This document shows, in pieces, positions 22,577-32,817 of a stretch of 64,000 bases of DNA (position 1 is its first letter; each line of letters opens with the position of its first letter). The DNA comes from Tomitella gaofuii (GTDB lineage: Bacteria; Actinomycetota; Actinomycetes; Mycobacteriales; Mycobacteriaceae). A program made the translations under genes and the position numbers. The notes beneath the pieces are model-generated. The model saw only the letters and a program-made list of their open reading frames with translations. It had not been told where the DNA came from and ran no database searches. The stretch lies in assembly GCF_014126825.1 (NCBI RefSeq), contig NZ_CP059900.1, positions 3,858,954-3,922,953 on the forward strand, written 5' to 3'.

Positions 22577-23854
22577 CTACTGTTCGGCCGCCGCTCCCAC
22601 GAGTCCGCTGACCCGGCCTCCGCCCGCCGCCTCCTCGAGGACCTTCAGAAACGCCGCGCCCGACCGTTCCCAGGCGAACTCCTGCACCCGGATGCGCGCC
22701 TTCTCACCCAGGTCGACGCGCAGGTTGGCGTCCCTCAGCAGCTCGGACACCGCGACGACGAGCTCCTCGCGGTCGTCGACGAGCAGCCCTGTCGCACCGT
22801 CGAGCACCGAATCGGTGAGCCCGCGCGATCCGCGGTAACCCACTGTGGGGACCGCGTGCTGGGCCGCCTCCACGACGGCCAGCCCCCAGCCCTCCTTACG
22901 GGACGGCATCACGTGCACCCATGACTGCGCCAGCAGCCGATGCTTGTGCTCCTCGGAGACGTGTCCGTGGAAGGTGACGGCGTCGGCCACACCCAGCTCG
23001 CGGGCGTGCCGGTGCAGCGGCTCCGACCACCAGCCGTCGCCGATCACGTCGAGCCGCACGTCCGGCATCAGAGGCCGCAGACGCGCCACCGCGTACATCG
23101 CGTCCTCGATCTGCTTGTGCGGCACCAGACGTGACAACACGACCAGGCCGGGGTGCGCCGTGCGGGTCGCGGAGCCGCCCGGGGCCACTGCGGCGGGCAC
23201 CTGGTCGAGGCCCGCCCGCACCACGGCCACTCTGTCGCCGTCGACGCCGAGGGACTCCAGCTCCTCCGCGGACGGCAGTGACACCGTCAGGTACTGGCTG
23301 CGCCGATACAGCCGCGGCGAGACCACCGACTCGAGCCACCAGCCCAGGCGGCCCAGGGCGCGTCCGGCCACCGGCCACTGCTCACGGTGGCAATGGTGGA
23401 CGAGCACCGCCACCGGTGCGCCCGCCACGAGCGCGGCGAAGAAGGGGATCCCGTTCTGGGTGTCCACGACGACGTCGGGCCGCAGTCCGCGCAGCGGGCC
23501 GACCCCGATGCGCCCCAGCGCGATCGCCGCGAGCGCCCGCGGATACACCGTGATCCGGCCGCCGCCGCGGCTGACGCCGACACTGCCCAGCCGGCCCCGC
23601 GCGGGCGCCCCCGCGTACCCGGCGGTGCGCAGTGTCACGCGCACTCCGCGCCGCGCGAGCTGCTCGCCGATTTGTTCGAGATACCGCTCGCTGCCGCCGC
23701 CCTGCGGGTGTCCGGAATCACGCCAGCACAACAGCAGGACCTCGCGGACCCGGCCGGGCCCCTCGGGCCGCGCAGTCGGGCCGTCGGCGCCGGTCACGGC
23801 ACCAACGGCCGCCGCCCCTGGCGCAGGGTTTCCACCGGTCTCTCGCACGGACAC
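22577..23854 (-). CDS. GT4 glycosyltransferase (Rv0225-like)
   Basis: 425 residues, GT-B fold. The acceptor half starts VLLLCWRDSGHPQGGGSERYLEQ, with the Gly-rich loop. The donor half shows LVVLSRLVPHKQIEDAM, VIGDGWW, FHGHVSEEHKHRLLAQSWVHV and the retaining EX7E region (SRKEGWGLAVVEAAQ). It should add a sugar from an NDP-sugar on the cytoplasmic face. The GTG at 23854 is preceded by TATCCT and six bases, so the mRNA is probably leaderless. It converges with the Rv0226c-like gene, as Rv0225 and Rv0226c do in M. tuberculosis. Confidence 0.92.
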   Translation of the reverse strand: MSVRETGGNPAPGAAAVGAVTGADGPTARPEGPGRVREVLLLCWRDSGHPQGGGSERYLEQIGEQLARRGVRVTLRTAGYAGAPARGRLGSVGVSRGGGRITVYPRALAAIALGRIGVGPLRGLRPDVVVDTQNGIPFFAALVAGAPVAVLVHHCHREQWPVAGRALGRLGWWLESVVSPRLYRRSQYLTVSLPSAEELESLGVDGDRVAVVRAGLDQVPAAVAPGGSATRTAHPGLVVLSRLVPHKQIEDAMYAVARLRPLMPDVRLDVIGDGWWSEPLHRHARELGVADAVTFHGHVSEEHKHRLLAQSWVHVMPSRKEGWGLAVVEAAQHAVPTVGYRGSRGLTDSVLDGATGLLVDDREELVVAVSELLRDANLRVDLGEKARIRVQEFAWERSGAAFLKVLEEAAGGGRVSGLVGAAAEQ

Positions 23855-23860
23855 GCATGC

Positions 23861-23866
23861 AGGATA
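23861..23866 (-). promoter_or_regulatory. -10 box of the GT4 gene (leaderless)
   Basis: TATCCT on the minus strand, 6 nt before the GTG start. Confidence 0.55.
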
Positions 23867-23921
23867 ACGGCTGTCCCGGCGCCGGGCCACGAGGCGCGGG
23901 CGCTGCCGCCGGGACAGCCTG

Positions 23922-24650
23922 TCACCCGAAGAGTTCGGCCAGGCTGCCGACGCTGCCGGTGTCGAGGCTGCCGAGCAGCTGGCCGACCACGCCGAACTCG
24001 TAGTTGACGGCCCGCAGGTAGACGGTCGCGTGCACGCTCGGATCCGTGGTGCCGGCCCCGTTCTCGCCGTCGTCAGCCCCCGTGCCGCTTCCCGGCACTG
24101 TGCCGCCGCTGATGCAGGTGCCCAGGGCCGTGTAGGCGCCGTCGCCGAGCGCGTACTCGACCGTGTTCTGCGCGCCCGGATCCACACGTGTCGCCGCATC
24201 GGGATCGACCGGGGACACCTTGCTGGCTGTGTCGTCGTCGGCGAGCGGGTCGTCCTCTGCCGCCTGCGTGTTTGCGAGCGCCGCAGCGGGTGCGGCGCCG
24301 TCGCCCGCGCCCGCGTCGCCCGCGCCGGTATCGCCCGCGCCGGTATCGCCCTCGGCCTGCTGCTTGCGCTCGATGAACCCCTGGACGATCTCCTTGACCT
24401 TCGAGTCCAGCTCGCCCACGTACACGTACGGGCCGTAGCAGGTGGTGTTCACCGGGCCGGCCGGTGGTGCGAACGTCACGGCGGTGTCCGCACCGGACGC
24501 GGCCGCCGTCAGCTCCGCGGTGTCCAGACGCATCTGCACATCCGGGAGCTTCTCCGCGATCGACGCGGACGCGATGCCCGGGCCCGCCGCAAGCACCGTC
24601 GCCACCGCCGCTCCCACAGCACCGACACTGGCAGCACGTCGCAACCTCAT
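23922..24650 (-). CDS. Secreted protein, family member A
   Basis: 242 residues, no known domain recognised. Signal peptide MRLRRAASVGAVGAAVATVL...GIASA with an Ala-x-Ala cleavage site near residue 29. Then TAELTAAASGADTAVTFAPP, first motif CYGPYVYVGE, an acidic GDTGAGDTGAGDAGAG linker, second motif GDGAYTALGTC, and a C-terminal GSLDTGSVGSLAELFG. The two cysteines probably form a disulfide outside the cell. It shares this plan with genes B-E nearby. GAGGAG lies 9 nt before the ATG. The downstream GT4 gene begins 67 bp after the stop. Confidence 0.85.
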   Translation of the reverse strand: MRLRRAASVGAVGAAVATVLAAGPGIASASIAEKLPDVQMRLDTAELTAAASGADTAVTFAPPAGPVNTTCYGPYVYVGELDSKVKEIVQGFIERKQQAEGDTGAGDTGAGDAGAGDGAAPAAALANTQAAEDDPLADDDTASKVSPVDPDAATRVDPGAQNTVEYALGDGAYTALGTCISGGTVPGSGTGADDGENGAGTTDPSVHATVYLRAVNYEFGVVGQLLGSLDTGSVGSLAELFG

Positions 24651-24788
24651 CCGTTCGGACTCCTCACCGCGGGCGTCCGCCCGCACCACAGCTTCATCGA
24701 CCTGTCGAACGCTATGAACCGGGCCGATAGGACGACAAGCCCGACTGTGACAGTTCACCTGTTCGGAGTTCAGCGGTCACGACATGGC

Positions 24789-24821
24789 GGCGGCCCGGCC
24801 GATGATCTCGGCCGGGCCGCC
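24789..24821 (-). terminator. Terminator hairpin after gene B
   Basis: Perfect 14-bp stem (24789-24802 with 24808-24821), 5-nt loop, 21 nt after the gene B stop. Confidence 0.75.
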
Positions 24822-24842
24822 TCGGGCGCAATCGCGCCGTCA

Positions 24843-25946
24843 CTAGCTGCCGCTGAGGCTCCCGAACACGGTTCCGAGACTCCCACCGCCGGTGGTGTCG
24901 CCGCCGCCACCACCGGGTCCAGTGCCGTCATCGCCGTCGCCCGTGTCCGCAGCGGCACTGAGGGCACCCTGATCCGCCCCGCCCGCTGCCACCGTGTACT
25001 CGATCGAGGCCACCGTTCCGGTCCCGTCCTTCACGTAGAAGTGATGCACACCGGCCTCCAGCGCCGACGGAAGCGTGCACACGAAGGTCAGTTCGCCGTC
25101 AGCGTCGGCATGCACATCGTCGAGCGTGCAGAACGGCGTAGAGCCGCTTCCCCCGTTGTATGGACCACCGGGCACCAACCCTGTGAATTGGACCATCACA
25201 GTCGCGCCGGGCTTGAATTCCGTCACCTGATTGGCCGCACCGGAATCGAAGGCCGGCGCGTTGATGTACGTCCAGTAGGCCTTCTGATCGGTGAAGGAGT
25301 CGGGGCTCTCCAGGTCGCCGGTCGCGCACGATGCCATCGCCAGATACGTATGGTCGGGATTCAGCTCGTACCCGAAGGCATTGTGGTCCGAGGTGCGCTC
25401 CATAAAGCTCGACGCCTCAGCCTCGCCGAAAGGATTTCCGCTGTCCTGGCCGAGCACCTCGCCCACCGAGAGGAGAGGCCCCAGCATCGCCGCCGCGCCG
25501 AACTGTGCGAGCTCCTCCCTCGAAGGGCCGAAGTCCTCCCGATACGCCGCATCCACGTACTGATCGATCAAGGCCTGGTTGGCTGCGACGAACCCCTTCG
25601 GGATAGCGAACATGTCCGCGTTGTCCAGCCCCCACTCGATCTGCCCGACGACGGAGTCAGGCAGACCGCCTTCACCCGCCGCCTGAGCCACGGTCGCATC
25701 GGACACCTGCGGCCCCGTGCAGTGCCGGTCGCCGCCGACGTTGTCGGGGGCGAATGTGACGGTAGTGATGCCGTCCGCCTGTGTCGCAGTCAGCTCGGGG
25801 GCATTGACCTGCACCGCAAACCCGCCGGCCCCTGCATCACCACCGCTTGCAGGCGCGTCGTCTGCTGCGGCAATCCCAGGCACGGCAAGTGCCATGGCCA
25901 TCGCGCCGACGGTCGCCGTCACTCCGGCCCTCGTGATGATCCTCAT
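24843..25946 (-). CDS. Secreted protein, family member B, with Ig-like C-terminal domain
   Basis: 367 residues. Signal peptide MRIITRAGVTATVGAMAMALA...GIAAA. The shared family start follows: APELTATQADGITTVTFAP, CTGPQV, later LNPDHTYLAMASC. A second domain (about residues 235-325) resembles a bacterial Ig-like fold with two cysteines: FKPGATVMVQFTGL, TPFCTLDD, GELTFVCTLPSALEAGVHHF. The same domain ends gene C. The tail is Gly/Asp-rich and ends GSLGTVFGSLSGS. GAGGAGG lies 8 nt before the ATG at 25946. Base composition looks less GC-rich than the flanking genes. Function unknown; probably envelope-associated or shed. Confidence 0.85.
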   Translation of the reverse strand: MRIITRAGVTATVGAMAMALAVPGIAAADDAPASGGDAGAGGFAVQVNAPELTATQADGITTVTFAPDNVGGDRHCTGPQVSDATVAQAAGEGGLPDSVVGQIEWGLDNADMFAIPKGFVAANQALIDQYVDAAYREDFGPSREELAQFGAAAMLGPLLSVGEVLGQDSGNPFGEAEASSFMERTSDHNAFGYELNPDHTYLAMASCATGDLESPDSFTDQKAYWTYINAPAFDSGAANQVTEFKPGATVMVQFTGLVPGGPYNGGSGSTPFCTLDDVHADADGELTFVCTLPSALEAGVHHFYVKDGTGTVASIEYTVAAGGADQGALSAAADTGDGDDGTGPGGGGGDTTGGGSLGTVFGSLSGS

Positions 25947-26114
25947 CCCGGTTCCTCCTCGATCGATCCGGTCCCACAGCGCGGTGCGGCAGATCATCCG
26001 AAGCTACGGCAATTGATGGGCATTGCATATCCTGCATTCACCCGTCAGCCATGCGAATGACAGCGCTTCTGAGACCTCCGGCCATTGGCTCCTCCATCTC
26101 GCGTCGCCGCCCAC

Positions 26115-26120
26115 TACCCT
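26115..26120 (+). promoter_or_regulatory. -10 box of the methyltransferase gene (leaderless)
   Basis: TACCCT, 6 nt before the GTG at 26127. Confidence 0.5.
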
Positions 26121-26126
26121 CGACCC

Positions 26127-26924
26127 GTGCCCCGCTTCCCCCTGCGCACACGCGCTTCCGCCGCCACCACACTTTTCGCCCGCCGTGCCACGTTGCGGCG
26201 CTCTGTACGCCTGCTCGGCGCGTTCCGCTTCGAGCAGTCCGACCCCGACAGCTTCTACGTCCCCCTCGCGCAGGACTCCGTCGAGATGATCGACGACCTG
26301 TACCGCGGCGCCACCGGACGCGGCATCGACGGCCATACGGTCGTCGACGTCGGCGGCGGGCCCGGGTACTTCGCCGACGCCTTCCGCGCAGCCGGCGCCC
26401 GCTATGTGCCCGTCGAACCCGACCCGTCGGAGATGCACGCGCGCGACATCGACCTGACAGGGGTGGCCATCCGCGGCTCGGGCACCGCCCTGCCGCTACG
26501 CGACGGCGCCGTCGACGTCTGCTTCTCCTCCAACGTCGCCGAACACGTGGCGCAGCCCTGGCGGATGGCCGACGAGATGCTCCGCGTGACCAAGCCCGGA
26601 GGCATCGTCGTGCTGTCCTACACCCTCTGGTGGGGGCCGTTCGGCGGCCACGAAACGGGGATGTGGCACTACGTGCTCGGCGGAGAGGGCGCGGCACGGC
26701 GCTACCGCCGGCGCCACGGGCACGAGCCCAAGAACCGCTTCGGCGCCTCGCTGTTCGCCGTGCACTGCCGCGACGGTCTCGCGTGGGCCCGCTCCGCGCC
26801 GTCGGGCGAACTGCTCGCCGCATTCCCCCGCTACCACCCCCGCTGGGCCTGGTGGCTCGTACGTGTACCGATTCTGCGCGAACTGCTCGTGAGCAACCTC
26901 GTACTGGTACTACGAAAGCACTGA
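26127..26924 (+). CDS. SAM-dependent methyltransferase (Rv0224c-like)
   Basis: 265 residues, class I fold. The SAM loop is VVDVGGGPGYFADAFRAAG, followed by the acidic strand VPVEPDPSEMHARD, CFSSNVAEHV and MLRVTKPGGIVVLSYT. The substrate is unknown; the place next to a GT4 gene suggests a sugar or lipid. I chose the GTG at 26127 because TACCCT stands six bases before it and no ribosome-binding site is present. A decayed copy of this gene lies 1.9 kb downstream. Confidence 0.9.
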   Translation: MPRFPLRTRASAATTLFARRATLRRSVRLLGAFRFEQSDPDSFYVPLAQDSVEMIDDLYRGATGRGIDGHTVVDVGGGPGYFADAFRAAGARYVPVEPDPSEMHARDIDLTGVAIRGSGTALPLRDGAVDVCFSSNVAEHVAQPWRMADEMLRVTKPGGIVVLSYTLWWGPFGGHETGMWHYVLGGEGAARRYRRRHGHEPKNRFGASLFAVHCRDGLAWARSAPSGELLAAFPRYHPRWAWWLVRVPILRELLVSNLVLVLRKH

Positions 26925-27034
26925 CCGGGTCCGCAGTATGTCAATCAATTGATCGACAGTACTCATTGCGGCTGGCCCAATCCGATCGAACGCATTAGTC
27001 TCCTCCTGGATTCACTCAACGGATGGAGATCGGA

Positions 27035-28021
27035 ATGCGTTTGACCCGCGTTGCCGAGCGGGCTCTGCCGCTCGCCGCCGCTACAATGTGCGGCCTCGCG
27101 ATCGCACTGCCCGCCACAGCCGCAGCGGCACCCGGAGGCGTCGAGGGCGGTGGCCCCGCTTCCGGCGGGGACGGAGTTGAGGAGCCGTCCGAGCCCGGTA
27201 CCAACATCGAGGAAATACTGAGCAACCTCACCTTTGCGGCAGTGGCGGACTCGGCGATGCTGACGGTGGAGACCACAGGGACCATTACGCGGGTCCACGT
27301 CGGCGCACCGATCGACAGCGATCCGACGGACAACCTCGGCCCATTCTGCTTCACGCCTCAGGTGTACTCCGGCCTACCCACGATTGATGCGGACGATGCG
27401 ATGCGGGTGGCGAACGCTTATTTCGGTCAGACCAGAAACCCCGCCGATACATTACTGGACAATGCCGATGAACTGGCGTATCCGTCCCGTATCACTCCCG
27501 ATCTCGGACGGTTGATATCGTATTCTCAGAATGCCAACCTGGGCATGCTGCCCTCCGGGACCTACACCGCTGCAGTCTTCTGCATCGAGGACAGAACTGC
27601 CCCCGGAGACTACACAGCCACGGCGTATACGCGAACGTTCGACGTCGTCGACCTGTCCGCAGCCTACGTCCCCGGCACACAGGTCGTCGTGACAGTGTCC
27701 GGCCTGAAGCCCGACCGGGAATACTCGGTGGCCGGGCACTCCACCGTGTTCTGCGAGAGCACCGCGACATCGGACAGCACCGGAACCCTCAGCTTCTCGT
27801 GCACGCTCCCTGAGGATCTCGAGCCCGGAATCCACCATTTCACCGTCGACGAACTCGACGGCACCGAAGCCGCCTCGATCGAGTTCGCAGTGGACCCCGA
27901 GGGCACGAACACCTCAGGCGCGATCGACGGAATAGCCGACGCCGAATCGGCCCCACCTGCGTCGCCCGGCCCGTTCGCGTCACTGGATGTCTTCGGTAGC
28001 CTCGGAATCACCGGCAGCTGA
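27035..28021 (+). CDS. Secreted protein, family member C, with Ig-like C-terminal domain
   Basis: 328 residues. Signal peptide MRLTRVAERALPLAAATMCG...ATAAAA. The family features are LTVETTGTITRVHV, FCFTPQVYSG and SGTYTAAVFC. The second domain parallels gene B: YVPGTQVVVTVSGL, STVFCESTA, TLSFSCTLPEDLEPGIHHF. The end is SLDVFGSLGITGS. The ATG at 27035 has GGAG six bases before it, and its MRL start matches gene A; the ATG at 27023 is less likely. Several stretches (27400-27540) are visibly AT-richer than neighbouring genes. Function unknown. Confidence 0.85.
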   Translation: MRLTRVAERALPLAAATMCGLAIALPATAAAAPGGVEGGGPASGGDGVEEPSEPGTNIEEILSNLTFAAVADSAMLTVETTGTITRVHVGAPIDSDPTDNLGPFCFTPQVYSGLPTIDADDAMRVANAYFGQTRNPADTLLDNADELAYPSRITPDLGRLISYSQNANLGMLPSGTYTAAVFCIEDRTAPGDYTATAYTRTFDVVDLSAAYVPGTQVVVTVSGLKPDREYSVAGHSTVFCESTATSDSTGTLSFSCTLPEDLEPGIHHFTVDELDGTEAASIEFAVDPEGTNTSGAIDGIADAESAPPASPGPFASLDVFGSLGITGS

Positions 28022-28032
28022 ACACCCACGGT

Positions 28033-28061
28033 GGCGGCCCGGATCCACATACCGGGCCGCC
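28033..28061 (+). terminator. Terminator hairpin after gene C
   Basis: GGCGGCCCGG and CCGGGCCGCC, 10 bp, 9-nt loop, 11 nt after the stop. Confidence 0.65.
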
Positions 28062-28065
28062 GCCG

Positions 28066-28437
28066 TTCGCCGACGTCTTCGGCACGGTCGGGGCCTGATA
28101 CGTGCCCGTCGAGCCGGACCCGCCGGAGATGCACGCGCCGGACATCGACCTGGCCGGGGTGGCGATCCACGGCTCGGGCACTGCCATACCGGCACGCAAC
28201 GGCGCGGCGCGGCGCTACCGCCGGATCCATAGGCACGAACCCAAGAACCGCTTCGGCACCTCACTGTTCGCCGTGCACTGCCGCGACGGGCTCGCGTGGG
28301 CCCGCTCCGCGCCGTAGGGCTAACTGCTCGCCGCATTCCCCCGCTACCACCCCCGCTGGGCCTGGCGGCTCGTACACGTACCGATTCTGCGCGAACTGCT
28401 CGTGAGCAACCTCGTACTGGTACTACGAAAGCACTGA
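28066..28437 (+). pseudogene. Decayed, internally deleted copy of the methyltransferase gene
   Basis: Aligns to bases ~26370-26924 of the intact gene. The first part keeps VPVEPDPPEMHAPDIDL. After AACGGC it jumps to GCGGCGCGG, which equals loss of 26508-26690 (183 bp, in frame). The rest keeps HEPKNRFG and LFAVHCRDGLAWARSAP. Then TCG-GGC-GAA has become TAG-GGC-TAA, giving two stops. The N-terminal half and SAM loop are missing. The last 88 bp are nearly identical to the intact gene, so the duplication is not old. Confidence 0.9.
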
Positions 28438-28454
28438 CCGGATCCGCATGGCGC

Positions 28455-28490
28455 CGTCCCGGGGCGGTTGCGCGGAACCGCCCCGGGACG
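28455..28490 (-). terminator. Terminator hairpin after gene D
   Basis: Perfect 15-bp stem (28455-28469 with 28476-28490), 6-nt loop, directly after the gene D stop at 28496. Confidence 0.75.
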
Positions 28491-28495
28491 GGCCG

Positions 28496-29118
28496 TCACA
28501 GCCCGCCGACGACGGCGTTGAAGTCGGCGACCGCCTGCTCCACCGGGGCGAGGAGCGCCGCGACGTCGACGACGGCATACAGGTTGAGCGCATCGGCGAA
28601 GTCGTAGAGCGACCCGATGCCGATCGTCTGCGCGCCGGCACCCGGATCGTCGATCACGCGCACCCAGCCGGTCGCAGTGCCGACGCCCGACGCCGCGTCC
28701 GACCAGCACGCCCCGACCGCCGTGTACTGCCCGCCGCCCAACGCGTAGGGGGCGTCGTGCGTGGTGCCAGGGCGCAACACGTACAGGTGCGCCGGAATGG
28801 GCCCGCCGTCGGGAGATACCACTACGCCGAGCTGCGTCAGGTCCGTCCCGCCGGACTCCAGGTACTGCTGCACCCTGGCATGGTGCACCTCGCCGGTGAA
28901 CACGACCGGTCCCATGCAGACCGTGCTGGGCCGCCAGGCGGGGCGTGGAAGGCGACGGCCGTGACCGCGCCCGCCGGGGCCGCGGTGAGCGCAGGCCCAT
29001 TCAGCACCGTGTTCACGCTTCTGGGCGCCGCCGATGCCGCCGCCGGCACCGCCACCGCCCATGCCGCGGCACCGACCGCGGCCACTGCCGCCGCCCTGGT
29101 GGTCCTTCTCGTGGTCAT
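28496..29118 (-). CDS. Secreted protein, family member D (frameshifted)
   Basis: Starts MTTRRTTRAAAVAAVGAAAW with a signal peptide ending AASAAP, then NGPALTAAPAGAVTAVAFHAP. After PPGGP the frame is lost; the rest of the family pattern (VCMGPVVFTGEVHH, then LGGGQYTAVGACWSDAA) continues in a second frame to the stop at 28496. One extra base in the GGG at 28928-28930 would give GGPSTVCMGP and an unbroken protein of about 207 residues. GGAG precedes the ATG at 29118. Two family cysteines are kept. Either a young pseudogene or a missed base. Confidence 0.75.
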
Positions 29119-29281
29119 CGTTCTCCACTCCTCTCCGGCCACCCGCGCGCACCGGTGCGGGACAGTCCCCGATTCGCGCGGCAGGCGGCGCGAGCATGTG
29201 ACGCGCACCGTAGGAATCGGCGCTCACAGAGCGCTCACAGATGGAGAAGTCCCTGTTCAGCACGCGCCTCTAGCCAGAGTC

Positions 29282-29295
29282 TGTAACACGTTCTA
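29282..29295. promoter_or_regulatory. KstR-like operator upstream of the aldehyde dehydrogenase
   Basis: TGTAACACGTTCTA fits every fixed position of the KstR consensus TnnAACnnGTTnnA. It overlaps a TACCCT -10 candidate (29294-29299), so binding would block transcription. I recall Rv0223c as a KstR target in mycobacteria; not verified here. Confidence 0.6.
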
Positions 29296-29366
29296 CCCTG
29301 TGTGACAGGGCTCTCCCCGACCCGCGAGTCCGGGGCCGCATCGCACTGCAGACACAAGGAGATCGG

Positions 29367-30821
29367 ATGACCGACTACGACACCCTGTTCATCGGCGGAA
29401 AGTGGGTGGCACCGCGCGGCCCGGAGCGCATCGACGTCACCTCGCCCGCCACGCTCGAGCACGTGGGCAGCGTGCCCGTCGCCGGCAACGCCGACATCGA
29501 CGCCGCTGTCGCCGCGGCCCGCGCCGTGGTCGACAACGGCACGTGGGGCCGCACCTCGCCCACCGAGCGCGCCGCGATCCTCACCAAGGCCGCCGAGCTG
29601 ATCACCGAGCGCAAGGACGCACTGATCGCTCTCACGTCGTCGGAAATGGGCGCCACGCATGCCGGCGTCGACATGATGCATATCACCCCGTCGCTGGCCA
29701 CGCTCAGTGCGTATGCGGCGCTGGCGGAGTCGTTCCCCTGGGAGGAAACGCGCCACGGGATGTTCGGCGAGTCCCGCGTGATCCGCGAGCCGGTCGGCGT
29801 CGTCGCCGCCGTCACCGCGTGGAACGTGCCGATCTTCCTCGCCGTCAACAAGTTGGCGCCCGCGATCATGGCCGGCTGCGCGGTGGTGCTCAAGCCGGCG
29901 CCGGACGCGCCGCTGTCCACCAACGCCATCGCCGAGATCTTCGCCGACGCCGGCCTGCCCGAGGGCGTGCTCTCCGTCGTGCAGGGCGGCGCCACGACCG
30001 GCGAGTACCTGGTCAACCACCCGGACGTGGACAAGGTGACCTTCACCGGCTCCACCGCCGTGGGACGCAAGATCGGGCAGTCCGCCGCCGACCAGCTCAA
30101 GCGCTGCTCGCTGGAGCTCGGCGGCAAGTCGGCCGCGATCGTCCTCGAGGACGCCGACCTGGCCGCGTCGGCGCCCATGCTGGCGATGAGCGGGCTGATG
30201 AACTCCGGGCAGGCGTGTGTGGCGCAGACCCGCATCCTGGCCCCGCGCTCGCGGTACGACGAGGTGGTCGAAGCGCTCAAGGGGATCGTCGAGGCGATGA
30301 TGAAGGTGGGCGACCCCACCGACCCGGCCACGCAGATCGGGCCCGTGATCAATGAGGCCCAGCGCGACAAGATCGAGGGCTACATCGCCAAGGGCAAGGA
30401 GGAGGGCGCCCGCGTGGTGCTCGGCGGGGAGCGCCCAGAGGGCCTCGGCGACGGGTACTACGTGGCGCCCACGATCTTCGCCGACGTCGACAACACGATG
30501 ACGATCGCCCGCGAGGAGATCTTCGGGCCCGTCCTGTCGGTGATCCCCTACGACACCGAGGACGACGCCGTGGCCATCGCCAACGACTCCGACTACGGCC
30601 TGGCCGGCTCGGTGTGGACCGCCGACGTAGAGCACGGCCTGCAGGTGGCGCGCAAGATCCGCACCGGCACCTACGGCATCAACTGGTACGCCTTCGACCC
30701 GGGCTCGCCGTTCGGCGGGTACAAGAGCTCCGGCATCGGCCGCGAGTGCGGGCCCGAGGGCATCGACGCGTTCTGCGAGATCAAGTCGGTGCTCATGCCC
30801 GCCGGGTACACCAGCTCCTGA
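29367..30821 (+). CDS. Aldehyde dehydrogenase (Rv0223c-like)
   Basis: 484 residues, a full ALDH. Visible: AAVTAWNVPIFLAVNKLAPA, the NAD-site FTGSTAVGRKIG, catalytic Glu in LELGGKSAAIV, catalytic Cys in NSGQACVAQTR and EEIFGPVLSVIPY. It oxidises an aldehyde to the acid with NAD(P). AAGGAG precedes the ATG. The KstR-like site upstream suggests a job in sterol or side-chain breakdown; the substrate is inference. A 12-bp terminator hairpin begins 3 nt after the stop. Confidence 0.94.
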   Translation: MTDYDTLFIGGKWVAPRGPERIDVTSPATLEHVGSVPVAGNADIDAAVAAARAVVDNGTWGRTSPTERAAILTKAAELITERKDALIALTSSEMGATHAGVDMMHITPSLATLSAYAALAESFPWEETRHGMFGESRVIREPVGVVAAVTAWNVPIFLAVNKLAPAIMAGCAVVLKPAPDAPLSTNAIAEIFADAGLPEGVLSVVQGGATTGEYLVNHPDVDKVTFTGSTAVGRKIGQSAADQLKRCSLELGGKSAAIVLEDADLAASAPMLAMSGLMNSGQACVAQTRILAPRSRYDEVVEALKGIVEAMMKVGDPTDPATQIGPVINEAQRDKIEGYIAKGKEEGARVVLGGERPEGLGDGYYVAPTIFADVDNTMTIAREEIFGPVLSVIPYDTEDDAVAIANDSDYGLAGSVWTADVEHGLQVARKIRTGTYGINWYAFDPGSPFGGYKSSGIGRECGPEGIDAFCEIKSVLMPAGYTSS

Positions 30822-30824
30822 TCC

Positions 30825-30855
30825 GTGCGAGCGGCGCTCTACACGCCGCTCGCAC
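30825..30855 (+). terminator. Terminator hairpin after the aldehyde dehydrogenase
   Basis: GTGCGAGCGGCG and its exact complement, 12 bp, 7-nt loop. Confidence 0.75.
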
Positions 30856-30862
30856 GCCGACC

Positions 30863-30911
30863 GTATGCGGAAACCGCCGGAGTTCTGCATGATCCGGCGG
30901 TTTCCGCATAC
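30863..30911. repeat. Palindromic repeat, family 1, copy 1
   Basis: Perfect 18-bp arms (GTATGCGGAAACCGCCGG) around a 13-nt loop, between convergent genes. The left arm is identical to that of copy 2 at 32008. Confidence 0.85.
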
Positions 30912-30947
30912 GTACGCCCGGCCGGCGAGCGCGAGGGCGCCGGCGGG

Positions 30948-31943
30948 TCACCAGGCGGCACCGGCCCGCGCGAACATGCTGTCGACGTAGCCCAGCAGCG
31001 TCGCCTGCATGGCCAGCAGATGCTTGTCCACGCGCAGCACATCCCACCCGATGTCGCGGTACTCCGCATACCGCGCGATATCCGATGAGTGCTTGTCCTC
31101 AGAGCGCCGGTGCCAGTCGCCGTCGTACTCGATGCCCGCCTTCCACTGCGGCCAGGCGAGATCGATGTGGGCGTGCAGCTGGCCGTACTCGTTGAGGACC
31201 GGAAACTGCGTGCACGGCCGGGGGTATCCGCGCCTGTGGAGCAGCAGCCGCAGGCGCGTCTCGGGTGGCGAGGCCGCACCGCTATCGACCAGGGGCAGGA
31301 CCGCGCGCAGCCTGTCGCCGCCCGCCGCCCGTGGATGGGCCCCTGCCACGTCCAGGATCGCGGCGGGGTCGATGCGGGTGGCGTTGCACAAGGCGTCGAG
31401 CATGATCAGCCGACGCGTGAAGTCCTCGTCGGAGCCCGGATCCCAGCGTCCGGTCGCCGAAGCCGGGTGCCGCGCCAGGTCGAACCCGGTGCGCGCCGGC
31501 GTCGTCACGCGCATGCCCCGCACAACAGCGACCTCACGCTCGGGCAGATCGGCGGTCCACACCGTGACCCCCGGTGTGCGGCGAGTGCTGCCGGAACGCG
31601 GCCGGATGAGGACCGGCGGCTCCGGATCGAAGTACTCGTAGTCTTCCCACTCGTGCTCGCGATAGCGGTAGGGCCCCGCGGTCGGCGCCGGGCGCTCCCG
31701 TCGCCGGCGATCGTCGAGGTACTTGGCACCGAGCACCGCGGCGGCCGACCGCCCGCCGAGCACGCTCCGGCCTCGGCCGTACAGCCATGCGGCCTCGGCC
31801 ATGATGCGCGCTGTCTTCTGCGTGCCCGGCTCGGCGTACACCCCGCGGAGCAACCGAACCTGGTGCTCACGCAGCCGCCGATCGCTCAACCCGCTCCCGG
31901 CCCGCGTGCGGACCCTCCCCCTGCTCTCCCCCACTCGCCCCAT
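30948..31943 (-). CDS. DUF559-type protein with Vsr/PD-(D/E)xK-like nuclease fold
   Basis: 331 residues from the ATG at 31943; no clear ribosome-binding site, so the start is uncertain. The N-terminal part (LREHQVRLLRGVYAEPGTQK; AWLYGRGRSVLGGRSAAAVL) resembles AbiEi-like winged-helix starts. The C-terminal ~110 residues look like a DUF559/very-short-patch-repair fold: LHAHIDLAWPQWKAGIEYDG, then WHRRSEDKHSSDIARYAEY and DVLRVDKHLL. The Asp and Glu-Tyr-Asp could bind metal. Such genes are common and scattered in actinobacteria without known roles. It is bracketed by two copies of palindrome family 1. Confidence 0.75.
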   Translation of the reverse strand: MGRVGESRGRVRTRAGSGLSDRRLREHQVRLLRGVYAEPGTQKTARIMAEAAWLYGRGRSVLGGRSAAAVLGAKYLDDRRRRERPAPTAGPYRYREHEWEDYEYFDPEPPVLIRPRSGSTRRTPGVTVWTADLPEREVAVVRGMRVTTPARTGFDLARHPASATGRWDPGSDEDFTRRLIMLDALCNATRIDPAAILDVAGAHPRAAGGDRLRAVLPLVDSGAASPPETRLRLLLHRRGYPRPCTQFPVLNEYGQLHAHIDLAWPQWKAGIEYDGDWHRRSEDKHSSDIARYAEYRDIGWDVLRVDKHLLAMQATLLGYVDSMFARAGAAW

Positions 31944-32007
31944 GCTGCCGGACCGTCCGTCCGCCGCCCGCGGCCGCCCCGCCCTTTGGCATCCCGACTC
32001 CGCCACC

Positions 32008-32056
32008 GTATGCGGAAACCGCCGGGATCGGGCCGGATCCGGAGTTTTCCGCATAC
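32008..32056. repeat. Palindromic repeat, family 1, copy 2
   Basis: Left arm identical to copy 1; right arm CCGGAGTTTTCCGCATAC differs at three places. The loop is again 13 nt. It lies upstream of the DUF559 gene and downstream of gene E. Confidence 0.85.
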
Positions 32057-32088
32057 GGATCCGCACAGTAGTCCGGTCCTACGCAGAA

Positions 32089-32125
32089 AACTCTGCCCCG
32101 CACCTTGCGGTCGCGGGGCAGAGTT
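32089..32125 (-). terminator. Terminator hairpin after gene E
   Basis: AACTCTGCCCCGC and its exact complement, 13 bp, 11-nt loop, 17 nt after the gene E stop. Confidence 0.7.
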
Positions 32126-32142
32126 GCGGCTGAGCGACCCGG

Positions 32143-32817
32143 TCAGCTGCCGGTGCCGGCGCCCAGCAGCCCGGTGAGCAGGCCGTCGGAGCTCAGGGCG
32201 GAGAGGGCGTCACCGGACTTGAGCAGCAGGCTGCCGAAGTCGAGCGCCGGGGAGATGCTGCCGATTCCGTTGGGCACGATCAGCGGGCGGACGGTGATGT
32301 CGTCGGTAACGAGGCCGAGGACAGTTCCGAGAACACTTTGCCCGCTGAATACCGCCCCGAAGATGTCGCCGATCTGGGCCAGCGTCGGATTCGCGCACGC
32401 GCCGACCAGGATGTAGACGCCGTCGTTCACGTCGGTCCAGTTCGTGGTCGACGGGTTGGGAAACGCCCTGTACTCGCCGACCACGGGGATGTCGACCGCG
32501 TTGTGCGATGCGATCTCGCCGTACTGCACGTCCTGACCGCCGTTGACGAGCATGTCCGCGATGGCCCCGTAGTCACCGGCCTGATACGCGACGAGGGCCT
32601 TCAGAGCCGTCTCACCGCTGACGAGCACCGGCAGGCACACCGCCAGACCCGCATTCTCATCCGTCGTCGTCACCGTGACGTCGTTGCCGTCCTGCTCGAC
32701 GGCGATCGTCGGCGCGTCCGCCATCGCCACCGCGGGCGCGGCCAGCGCGGCCCCTCCCGCCATCGTCGCGGCCGCGACCACGCCGATCCCGAGCTTCTTG
32801 ACCCTTCCGAACCCCAT
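32143..32817 (-). CDS. Secreted protein, family member E
   Basis: 224 residues. Signal peptide MGFGRVKKLGIGVVAAATMA...AVAMA. Family features: PTIAVEQDGNDVTVTTTDE, VCLPVLVSGE and NDGVYILVGAC. It lacks the Ig-like second domain of B and C and ends SSDGLLTGLLGAGTGS. AGGGGA precedes the ATG. Two cysteines in the mature chain. Function unknown. It stands between an enoyl-CoA hydratase gene and the DUF559 gene, all on the minus strand, with its own terminator. Confidence 0.85.
   Translation of the reverse strand: MGFGRVKKLGIGVVAAATMAGGAALAAPAVAMADAPTIAVEQDGNDVTVTTTDENAGLAVCLPVLVSGETALKALVAYQAGDYGAIADMLVNGGQDVQYGEIASHNAVDIPVVGEYRAFPNPSTTNWTDVNDGVYILVGACANPTLAQIGDIFGAVFSGQSVLGTVLGLVTDDITVRPLIVPNGIGSISPALDFGSLLLKSGDALSALSSDGLLTGLLGAGTGS

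Follow-up and report, generated by a model that had tools for sequence, protein, structure and literature searches.

Described systems close to the one studied here include proteins of mycolic-acid bacteria. PorH and PorB of Corynebacterium glutamicum end in NFSS, PorB is Ser-rich at both ends, and mycolate is attached to Ser56 of PorH and to the penultimate serine of ProtX (PMC5310785). PorA and PorH are described as having neither Sec nor Tat signals (PMC11927696). The mapped mycoloylation sites lie among serines and small residues in flexible stretches (PMC11066868), and these texts report no consensus by which proteins are chosen for mycoloylation (PMC5310785, PMC11066868). PS2 of C. glutamicum is held by a C-terminal hydrophobic segment, for which a terminal F, P or K is suggested to be important (PMC12021427). 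The genes tmaT, mmpA, and mtrP form one conserved locus for trehalose-mycolate acetylation and transport, with aftD and PEPCK in the same gene stretch (PMC8698533, PMC7775120). Here we analyze a 64,000-nucleotide stretch of DNA (the window; G000:C1:3858954-3922953) from the 4.35 Mb single-contig genome of a member of the genus Tomitella, with a focus on five genes, A to E, for exported proteins with two cysteines and on the short C-terminal tail that three of them carry. Our best overall explanation, which we hold with slightly less than even confidence, is that these proteins may form a surface family and that the tail may be an envelope-sorting module, possibly O-mycoloylated.

A family of exported two-cysteine proteins

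An earlier note on this DNA had described the five genes as secreted proteins with a common paired-cysteine motif. Genes A, B, C, and E proved to be open reading frames (ORFs) with export-type N termini, the signal peptides being judged by eye. Gene D could not be upheld as a single reading frame: over the 623 bases drawn for it, the frame that encodes the N-terminal part is not the one that encodes the C-terminal part. Aligned with the intact copy in genome G004 (L012 11831-12451, plus strand), its DNA shows a length difference of a single base immediately ahead of the first cysteine; the broken D may be either a pseudogene or a sequencing error. The genes and their parts are as follows.

23922..24650, minus strand: gene A, with an export-type start, a two-Cys domain, a Gly/Asp-rich stretch, and the C-terminal tail ...GSVGSLAELFG (23925-23966)
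24843..25946, minus strand: gene B, with an export-type start, a two-Cys domain, an immunoglobulin (Ig)-like domain (about 24942-25241), and the tail ...GGGSLGTVFGSLSGS (24846-24890)
27035..28021, plus strand: gene C, with a two-Cys domain (Cys105, Cys183) and the end ...ASLDVFGSLGITGS
27410-27478, plus strand: variable loop of gene C, residues 126-148
27647-27910, plus strand: Ig-like domain of gene C, about residues 205-292
28496..29118, minus strand: gene D, frame-broken here and without the GSL..FGS tail
32143..32817, minus strand: gene E, with a two-Cys domain and the end ...GLLTGLLGAGTGS; apparently the oldest member at the locus

The motif held in part. A first cysteine with a nearby proline and a later Y-x5-C occur in all five proteins; the longer form G-x-Y-x5-C is found in A, C, D, and E, and B has H-T-Y-x5-C instead.

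The grouping of A to E into one family was borne out when profiles of hand-cut mature parts were compared with one another and with column-shuffled nulls. Against the A/B/D group, window B scored 52.4, group F (relatives from Rhodococcus and from g10, a genus close to Prescottella) 44.0, the first domain of C 41.5, and E 31.8, and E scored 52.6 against group F. The best of 60 column shuffles reached 18.7 for C, 18.0 for E, 17.2 for F, and 20.5 for E against F, with none run for window B. There was no direct profile match between window B and C domain 1, E, or F, nor between C and E or F, so these members are joined through the A/B/D group. Searches with blastp linked A, the B genes of genomes G003 and G004, and the D gene of G004 (E 1e-5 to 1e-11), and also the Ig-like domains of B and C, which agree at 41.9% over 93 amino acids and had been recognized as a common second domain in the earlier note. 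A hidden Markov model (HMM) built from mature parts alone detects C at 3.7e-7, with 6.6e-6 for its best single stretch. In the own genome, the narrow profile A1, made from A/B/D orthologues alone, picked up C at E values no better than 5.8 and 7.05 and had no entry for gene E, so that C and E join via the wider family; D belongs by way of its two pieces and its G004 orthologue. From these sequence comparisons, A to E almost certainly constitute one undescribed family of exported two-Cys proteins.

In the conservation alignment, which kept 45 of 71 rows after an 80% identity filter, the best columns are the two cysteines (1.0 and 0.96), a tyrosine (0.98), a glycine (0.98), and a proline (0.96). 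The near-invariance of both cysteines supports the disulfide-type scaffold suggested earlier, and we infer a head with a disulfide-held beta fold that would be Ig- or cupredoxin-like. The best polar columns are a serine (0.82, in the G-S of the C-terminal part), an asparagine (0.76), and an aspartate (0.73); none of the 25 best conserved columns is His, Glu, Lys, or Arg. An enzyme was rejected on these grounds, with scaffold-type residues dominating. We also rejected a cupredoxin-type copper protein: the His/Cys/His/Met ligands are not conserved, and neither His nor Met is among the same 25 columns.

The earlier impression that no described family has this form stood in the libraries searched, and no profile match to an unrelated family exceeded a curated cut-off. 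In Pfam and NCBIfam there was none above the cut-off for A, B, C, the D piece, or E, for ten relatives or D/B orthologues, or for the members of alignment A14 (43 of the 45 references). The PDB gave no match for A4 and at best E 0.087 for A3 and E 0.051 for A14. PsbO (E 0.051) has a similar C...G-x-Y-x5-C, but the alignment pairs the first cysteine with another PsbO cysteine, and we dismissed it as chance. Judged by title or abstract start, none of the open-licence papers listed in literature searches describes the family or its tail, which is no proof of absence.

The C-terminal tail and its possible role

In A, B, and C, the end rich in Gly, Ser, and Leu, which had been noted as a usual feature of the family, is very probably a module of its own and more surprising than the family itself. 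The ends of these three proteins and of some relatives follow the consensus GSLxx(L/V/M/I)FG(S). A DNA pattern for this tail has seven matches in the own genome and none when read backwards. In six of the seven cases, the match sits 8-15 codons ahead of the stop codon in an ORF whose start is of the export type; with A and B removed, four of five lie 11-15 codons from the stop (p about 9e-8, with 4000 genes assumed). The carriers outside the family are two Pfam-less proteins with 50% mutual identity, a Gly-rich ALK_LTK_GRD protein, and one further unmatched protein. Among the tail-bearing exported proteins elsewhere in this genome, L201, L203, and L205 also start their mature N terminus with GSL-rich repeats, and the mature parts of L203 and L205 begin GSLGSL.

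Genome G188 belongs to g23, the genus of the Rhodococcus genomes. Here 19 of 25 matches fall in the last 23 codons, in 16 ORFs, of which 15 end exactly in FGS; the examined locus often stops inside the ORF, so most signal peptides are not visible. The six uncounted matches are internal (L243, L261, L262), in frames of 8 and 18 residues (L244 and L255), or, by eye, at the end of a PurL-like protein (L254). L238-L242 and L245-L260 of this genome are a series of large proteins, several of them Ig-repeat-like, that neighbor one another; the series is a putative adhesin-like surface repertoire. An HtaA protein and a VWA protein from g4 genomes also terminate in the tail. When the last 20 residues were removed from 31 distinct tail ORFs (from L201-L262), only A and B matched the family HMMs at E 1. 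The presence of the tail on exported proteins outside the family, together with its end position, makes it very probably a separable end module.

Counts by genus were taken from 221 genomes. The pattern exceeds its backward control by 56 to 1 in g21 (nearest to R. maanshanensis), 117 to 11 in g23, 30 to 2 in g1 (Tomitella), and 81 to 2 in g10, and it is in these four genera, too, that most strong matches to the family were seen. The excess is moderate in g9 (42 to 13), g2 (7 to 0), and g4 (19 to 6) and slight in g27 and g6. Genomes outside the Mycobacteriaceae had at most five matches each in an order-wide draw. Of 30 further loci, 12 are from g4; among these, convincing tails are present in L225, L226, L227, L228, L231, and L235, and L233 is unclear. 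None was accepted among L208-L224 (17 loci from g19, g3, and g15, the last being Antrihabitans), where L215 fits the length and distance rule and lacks an export-type start; the match in L237 (g9) is internal.

A pathway can be sketched from these observations. A to E would leave the cytoplasm by Sec-type export in mycolic-acid bacteria, each with a disulfide-held beta head bearing a tyrosine-corner-like G-x-Y-x5-C and then a flexible linker. The tail of A, B, C, and some relatives would direct the protein to the mycomembrane or hold it there, and the tail serines might be O-mycoloylated by a Cmt1/MytC-type enzyme. The head could then act as a surface recognition module, varied by duplication, domain gain, allele replacement, and changes in the inter-cysteine loop. 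The link to the mycomembrane comes from the neighborhood, which contains AftD, an Acyl_transf_3 protein, a PorA-family (DUF3068-type) protein, a group-1 glycosyltransferase, and a methyltransferase. The methyltransferase we take to be mtrP (Rv0224c) and the acyltransferase TmaT, assignments drawn from domain and gene order rather than from a tree; no gene here was assigned as mmpA. The acylation idea comes from the likeness to the ends of PorH, PorB, and ProtX.

We consider a sorting role for the tail somewhat probable and its mycoloylation unlikely. Equally tentative is the fullest version, in which the tail would be an unrecognized rhodococcal-type signal by which exported proteins with many different folds are selected for O-mycoloylation and presented on the mycomembrane; some of the two-Cys family would be one class of its cargo, a variable surface recognition system kept in the mycolate-transport locus. 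Several observations weigh against these proposals. A motif count on the distinct family ends puts it in 8 of 16 ends of the A/B/D type but in 7 of 61 of the E/F type, and because it is in a minority of E/F-type members we lowered our confidence in the best overall explanation from even to a little below. D and E lack the tail, and A ends LFG with no following serine. There is no enrichment over the backward control in g3 (25 to 26), g22 (which contains Nocardia jejuensis; 22 to 15), g29 (22 to 15), or g30 (17 to 14). The pattern was designed after this family's tails had been seen. Its distance from the stop codon was examined only for the matches in the own genome, in G188, and in the 30 loci; the figures for g21, g10, and the other g23 genomes are counts against the backward control. 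The mycoloylome study gives no strict consensus (PMC11066868).

A tail that anchors by a short hydrophobic or beta insertion with no acylation, or that binds another envelope protein, is doubtful to much the same degree: the exact FGS carboxyl end of 15 of the 16 counted G188 ORFs recalls terminal-residue signals, and the anchoring of PS2 is a precedent for it (PMC12021427), but the tail is short, Gly/Ser-rich, and not a clear helix. It is improbable that the proteins are freely secreted and that the tail is a low-complexity end arising from shared ancestry or composition, with no sorting role. The widely varying ends of the E/F clade and the several mycolic-acid genera with no tail enrichment would agree with free secretion, whereas the tail's occurrence on proteins outside the family with different Pfam domains, its end position, and a backward control near zero in the enriched genera argue against it. 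If the sorting role does hold, a strict end motif on many Rhodococcus-type exported proteins would be a directly testable signal and would allow part of the surface proteome to be predicted.

Divergence and history of the locus

Ratios of nonsynonymous to synonymous substitution rates (dN/dS; Nei-Gojobori method) were calculated across the window genome (G000), G003, and G004. They are 0.07-0.22 for the flanking genes, 0.17-0.22 for A, 0.35 for the C-terminal part of D, 0.66 for C, 0.54-0.70 for B (where the alignments are poor), and 0.38-0.95 for E. B, C, and E diverge fast. Of the 22 amino-acid changes in C, 13 are concentrated in the inter-cysteine residues 126-148 (permutation p 2e-4), and codons 149-320, which include the Ig-like domain, have no changes between G000 and G004, synonymous ones included. 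For B, the blastn alignment with G004 breaks up between 24907 and 25952 and picks up again at the 3' end, which includes the tail, the neighbors aligning; the break has a sharp border toward the tail and a blurred one ahead of the start codon. The Ig-like domain of window B is missing from its counterparts in G003 and G004.

A variable recognition role for the head is possible but falls short of an even chance. With a chance only slightly below even, the fast divergence of B, C, and E may reflect relaxed constraint and recombination instead of selection for variable recognition. The ratios for these genes below 1 count against the recognition role, as relaxed constraint or recombination could explain the divergence, and the broken D fits the same account; so does the identity of codons 149-320 of C in G000 and G004 while neighbors differ, a recombination signature. 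Set against that are the concentration of the changes of C in one 23-residue inter-cysteine stretch and the constraint on gene A. The family, exported, undescribed, and present in several genera, shows signs of varying rapidly and is possibly a class of adhesins or phage-facing proteins.

The other features of the locus are these.

22577..23911, minus strand: group-1 glycosyltransferase, the left border of A/B
26085..26924, plus strand: methyltransferase, taken as the mtrP (Rv0224c-type) orthologue from its domain and the gene order
28066..28448, plus strand: partial methyltransferase gene copy, in two blocks with an internal deletion
29367..30821, plus strand: aldehyde dehydrogenase (ALDH), the right border of C, the partial copy, and D
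24785..24826, minus strand: strong hairpin 3' of B, with no T run
28450..28495, minus strand: strong hairpin 3' of D, with no T run
32004..32060, minus strand: strong hairpin 3' of E, similar in sequence to 30858-30916

The earlier note had missed the partial methyltransferase copy between C and D, in which 28066-28205 is 83% identical to 26370-26509 and 28201-28448 is 94% identical to 26688-26935; the remnant is also present in G004. The statement that most genes have their own terminator was not confirmed: a T-run scan gave one site against a shuffle mean of 3.0, and that site follows none of the five genes. Hairpins, folded for A, B, D, and E, are strong after B, D, and E (z scores -6.6, -5.8, and -4.5) and weak after A (-2.1). 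The lower GC content of B and C was seen again, at third codon positions (GC3 0.79 and 0.76, compared with 0.85-0.98 in ten other segments).

The gene order of G004 is the same as here (A, B, methyltransferase, C, partial copy, D, ALDH, E), and G003 has A, B, methyltransferase, ALDH, and E, without C, the partial copy, and D. In Tomitella biformata AHU 1821 (G002), the glycosyltransferase abuts the methyltransferase and two E-type genes follow ALDH; no A-D-type gene was found in this species. The idea that the family was inserted into a conserved gene block applies to A-D, absent from the T. biformata locus, and not to E, whose position is old. Around the methyltransferase in 80 named loci, there are eight family matches in seven loci and no others at E 0.05: Speluncibacter, T. 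biformata (two), Rhodococcus sp. RD6.2, R. jostii, R. maanshanensis, Prescottella defluvii, and R. marinonascens. The named loci reach at most 10 kb on each side, some less, which makes 7 of 80 a lower bound. All seven loci have the E-type gene in minus orientation; it follows ALDH and, wherever ECH or PEPCK came into view, precedes them, and from this constant place E looks like an old resident of the locus. A and B look like gains on the branch leading to G000, G003, and G004, whereas C, the partial copy, and D look like later gains shared by G000 and G004 alone, with losses elsewhere possible. The direct methyltransferase copies on either side of C would fit a duplication or a single-crossover gain.

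The search beyond the locus that the earlier note had proposed showed the family spread over several Mycobacteriaceae genera, not a local invention, and the E-type gene at the same locus in the seven cases above. At E 1e-3, profile A8 matches 71 of 401 Mycobacteriaceae genomes, drawn from 10 of 31 genera, and some of these matches are weak; few candidates were scored per genome, and misses are likely. Profile A5 matches 39 of the 401 at E 0.01, many weakly, and in a draw of 249 genomes from the order the own genome is the sole match. Matches in G102, G324, G013, and G198 were discarded by eye as signal-peptide-type. Tandem family copies and a multi-domain relative bore out the suggested diversification by duplication. 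In a g10 genome, L186 6705-8336 encodes a 544-residue protein with four tandem two-Cys domains.

We rejected a mobile element: no tRNA was found within the window, C and L055 had no plasmid match, and B and L062 had no phage match, the plasmid and phage searches taking in these four. A search of genome contigs with B found nothing, and neither A, B, C, and E nor the C-terminal piece of D matched a defence protein in PADLOC. The palindromes at 30858-30916 and 32004-32060, 83% alike over 58 bases, flank a gene at 30948-32066 whose product weakly matches AbiEi antitoxin, MTES_1575, and DUF559 nuclease models. This gene is kept at the same place in G003 and G004, where similar palindromes also occur. 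The palindromes are probably hairpins downstream of ALDH and E and perhaps copies of one element.

Comparison with known systems

For the head, the nearest known folds are all weak matches below the cut-offs. Neocarzinostatin-type chromoproteins (NF040680) match C at E 0.099; among cupredoxins, rusticyanin matches L062 at E 0.012 and the blue copper chain 6kol gives E 0.86. Monobodies of the fibronectin type III fold match the Ig-like domain of C, at best at E 0.04. Big_3_5 bacterial Ig-like repeat proteins offer another parallel, as the tail-bearing L252 of G188 is of this kind and B and C have an Ig-like second domain; they differ in that the two-Cys head has no Pfam match.

For the tail, LPXTG and PEP-CTERM signals are likewise short end modules on otherwise unrelated exported proteins. 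They differ from the tails inspected here, in which no membrane helix with a basic end after it was seen by eye. A sortase substrate of the LPXTG type was rejected: A-E contain no LPXTG, and the sole LPATA, in C, lies within its signal peptide.

The likeness to PorH, PorB, and ProtX consists of a phenylalanine followed by serine at the C terminus, Ser-rich ends, and mycolic-acid hosts. The tails here are Ser/Gly-rich, as is described for mycoloylation sites (PMC11066868), and L203 and L205, with GSLGSL at the mature start and the tail at the end, resemble PorB with its two Ser-rich ends. PorH, PorB, and ProtX are small porins, whereas the proteins of this locus have exported two-Cys heads and, in some members, a longer GSLxxLFGS tail.

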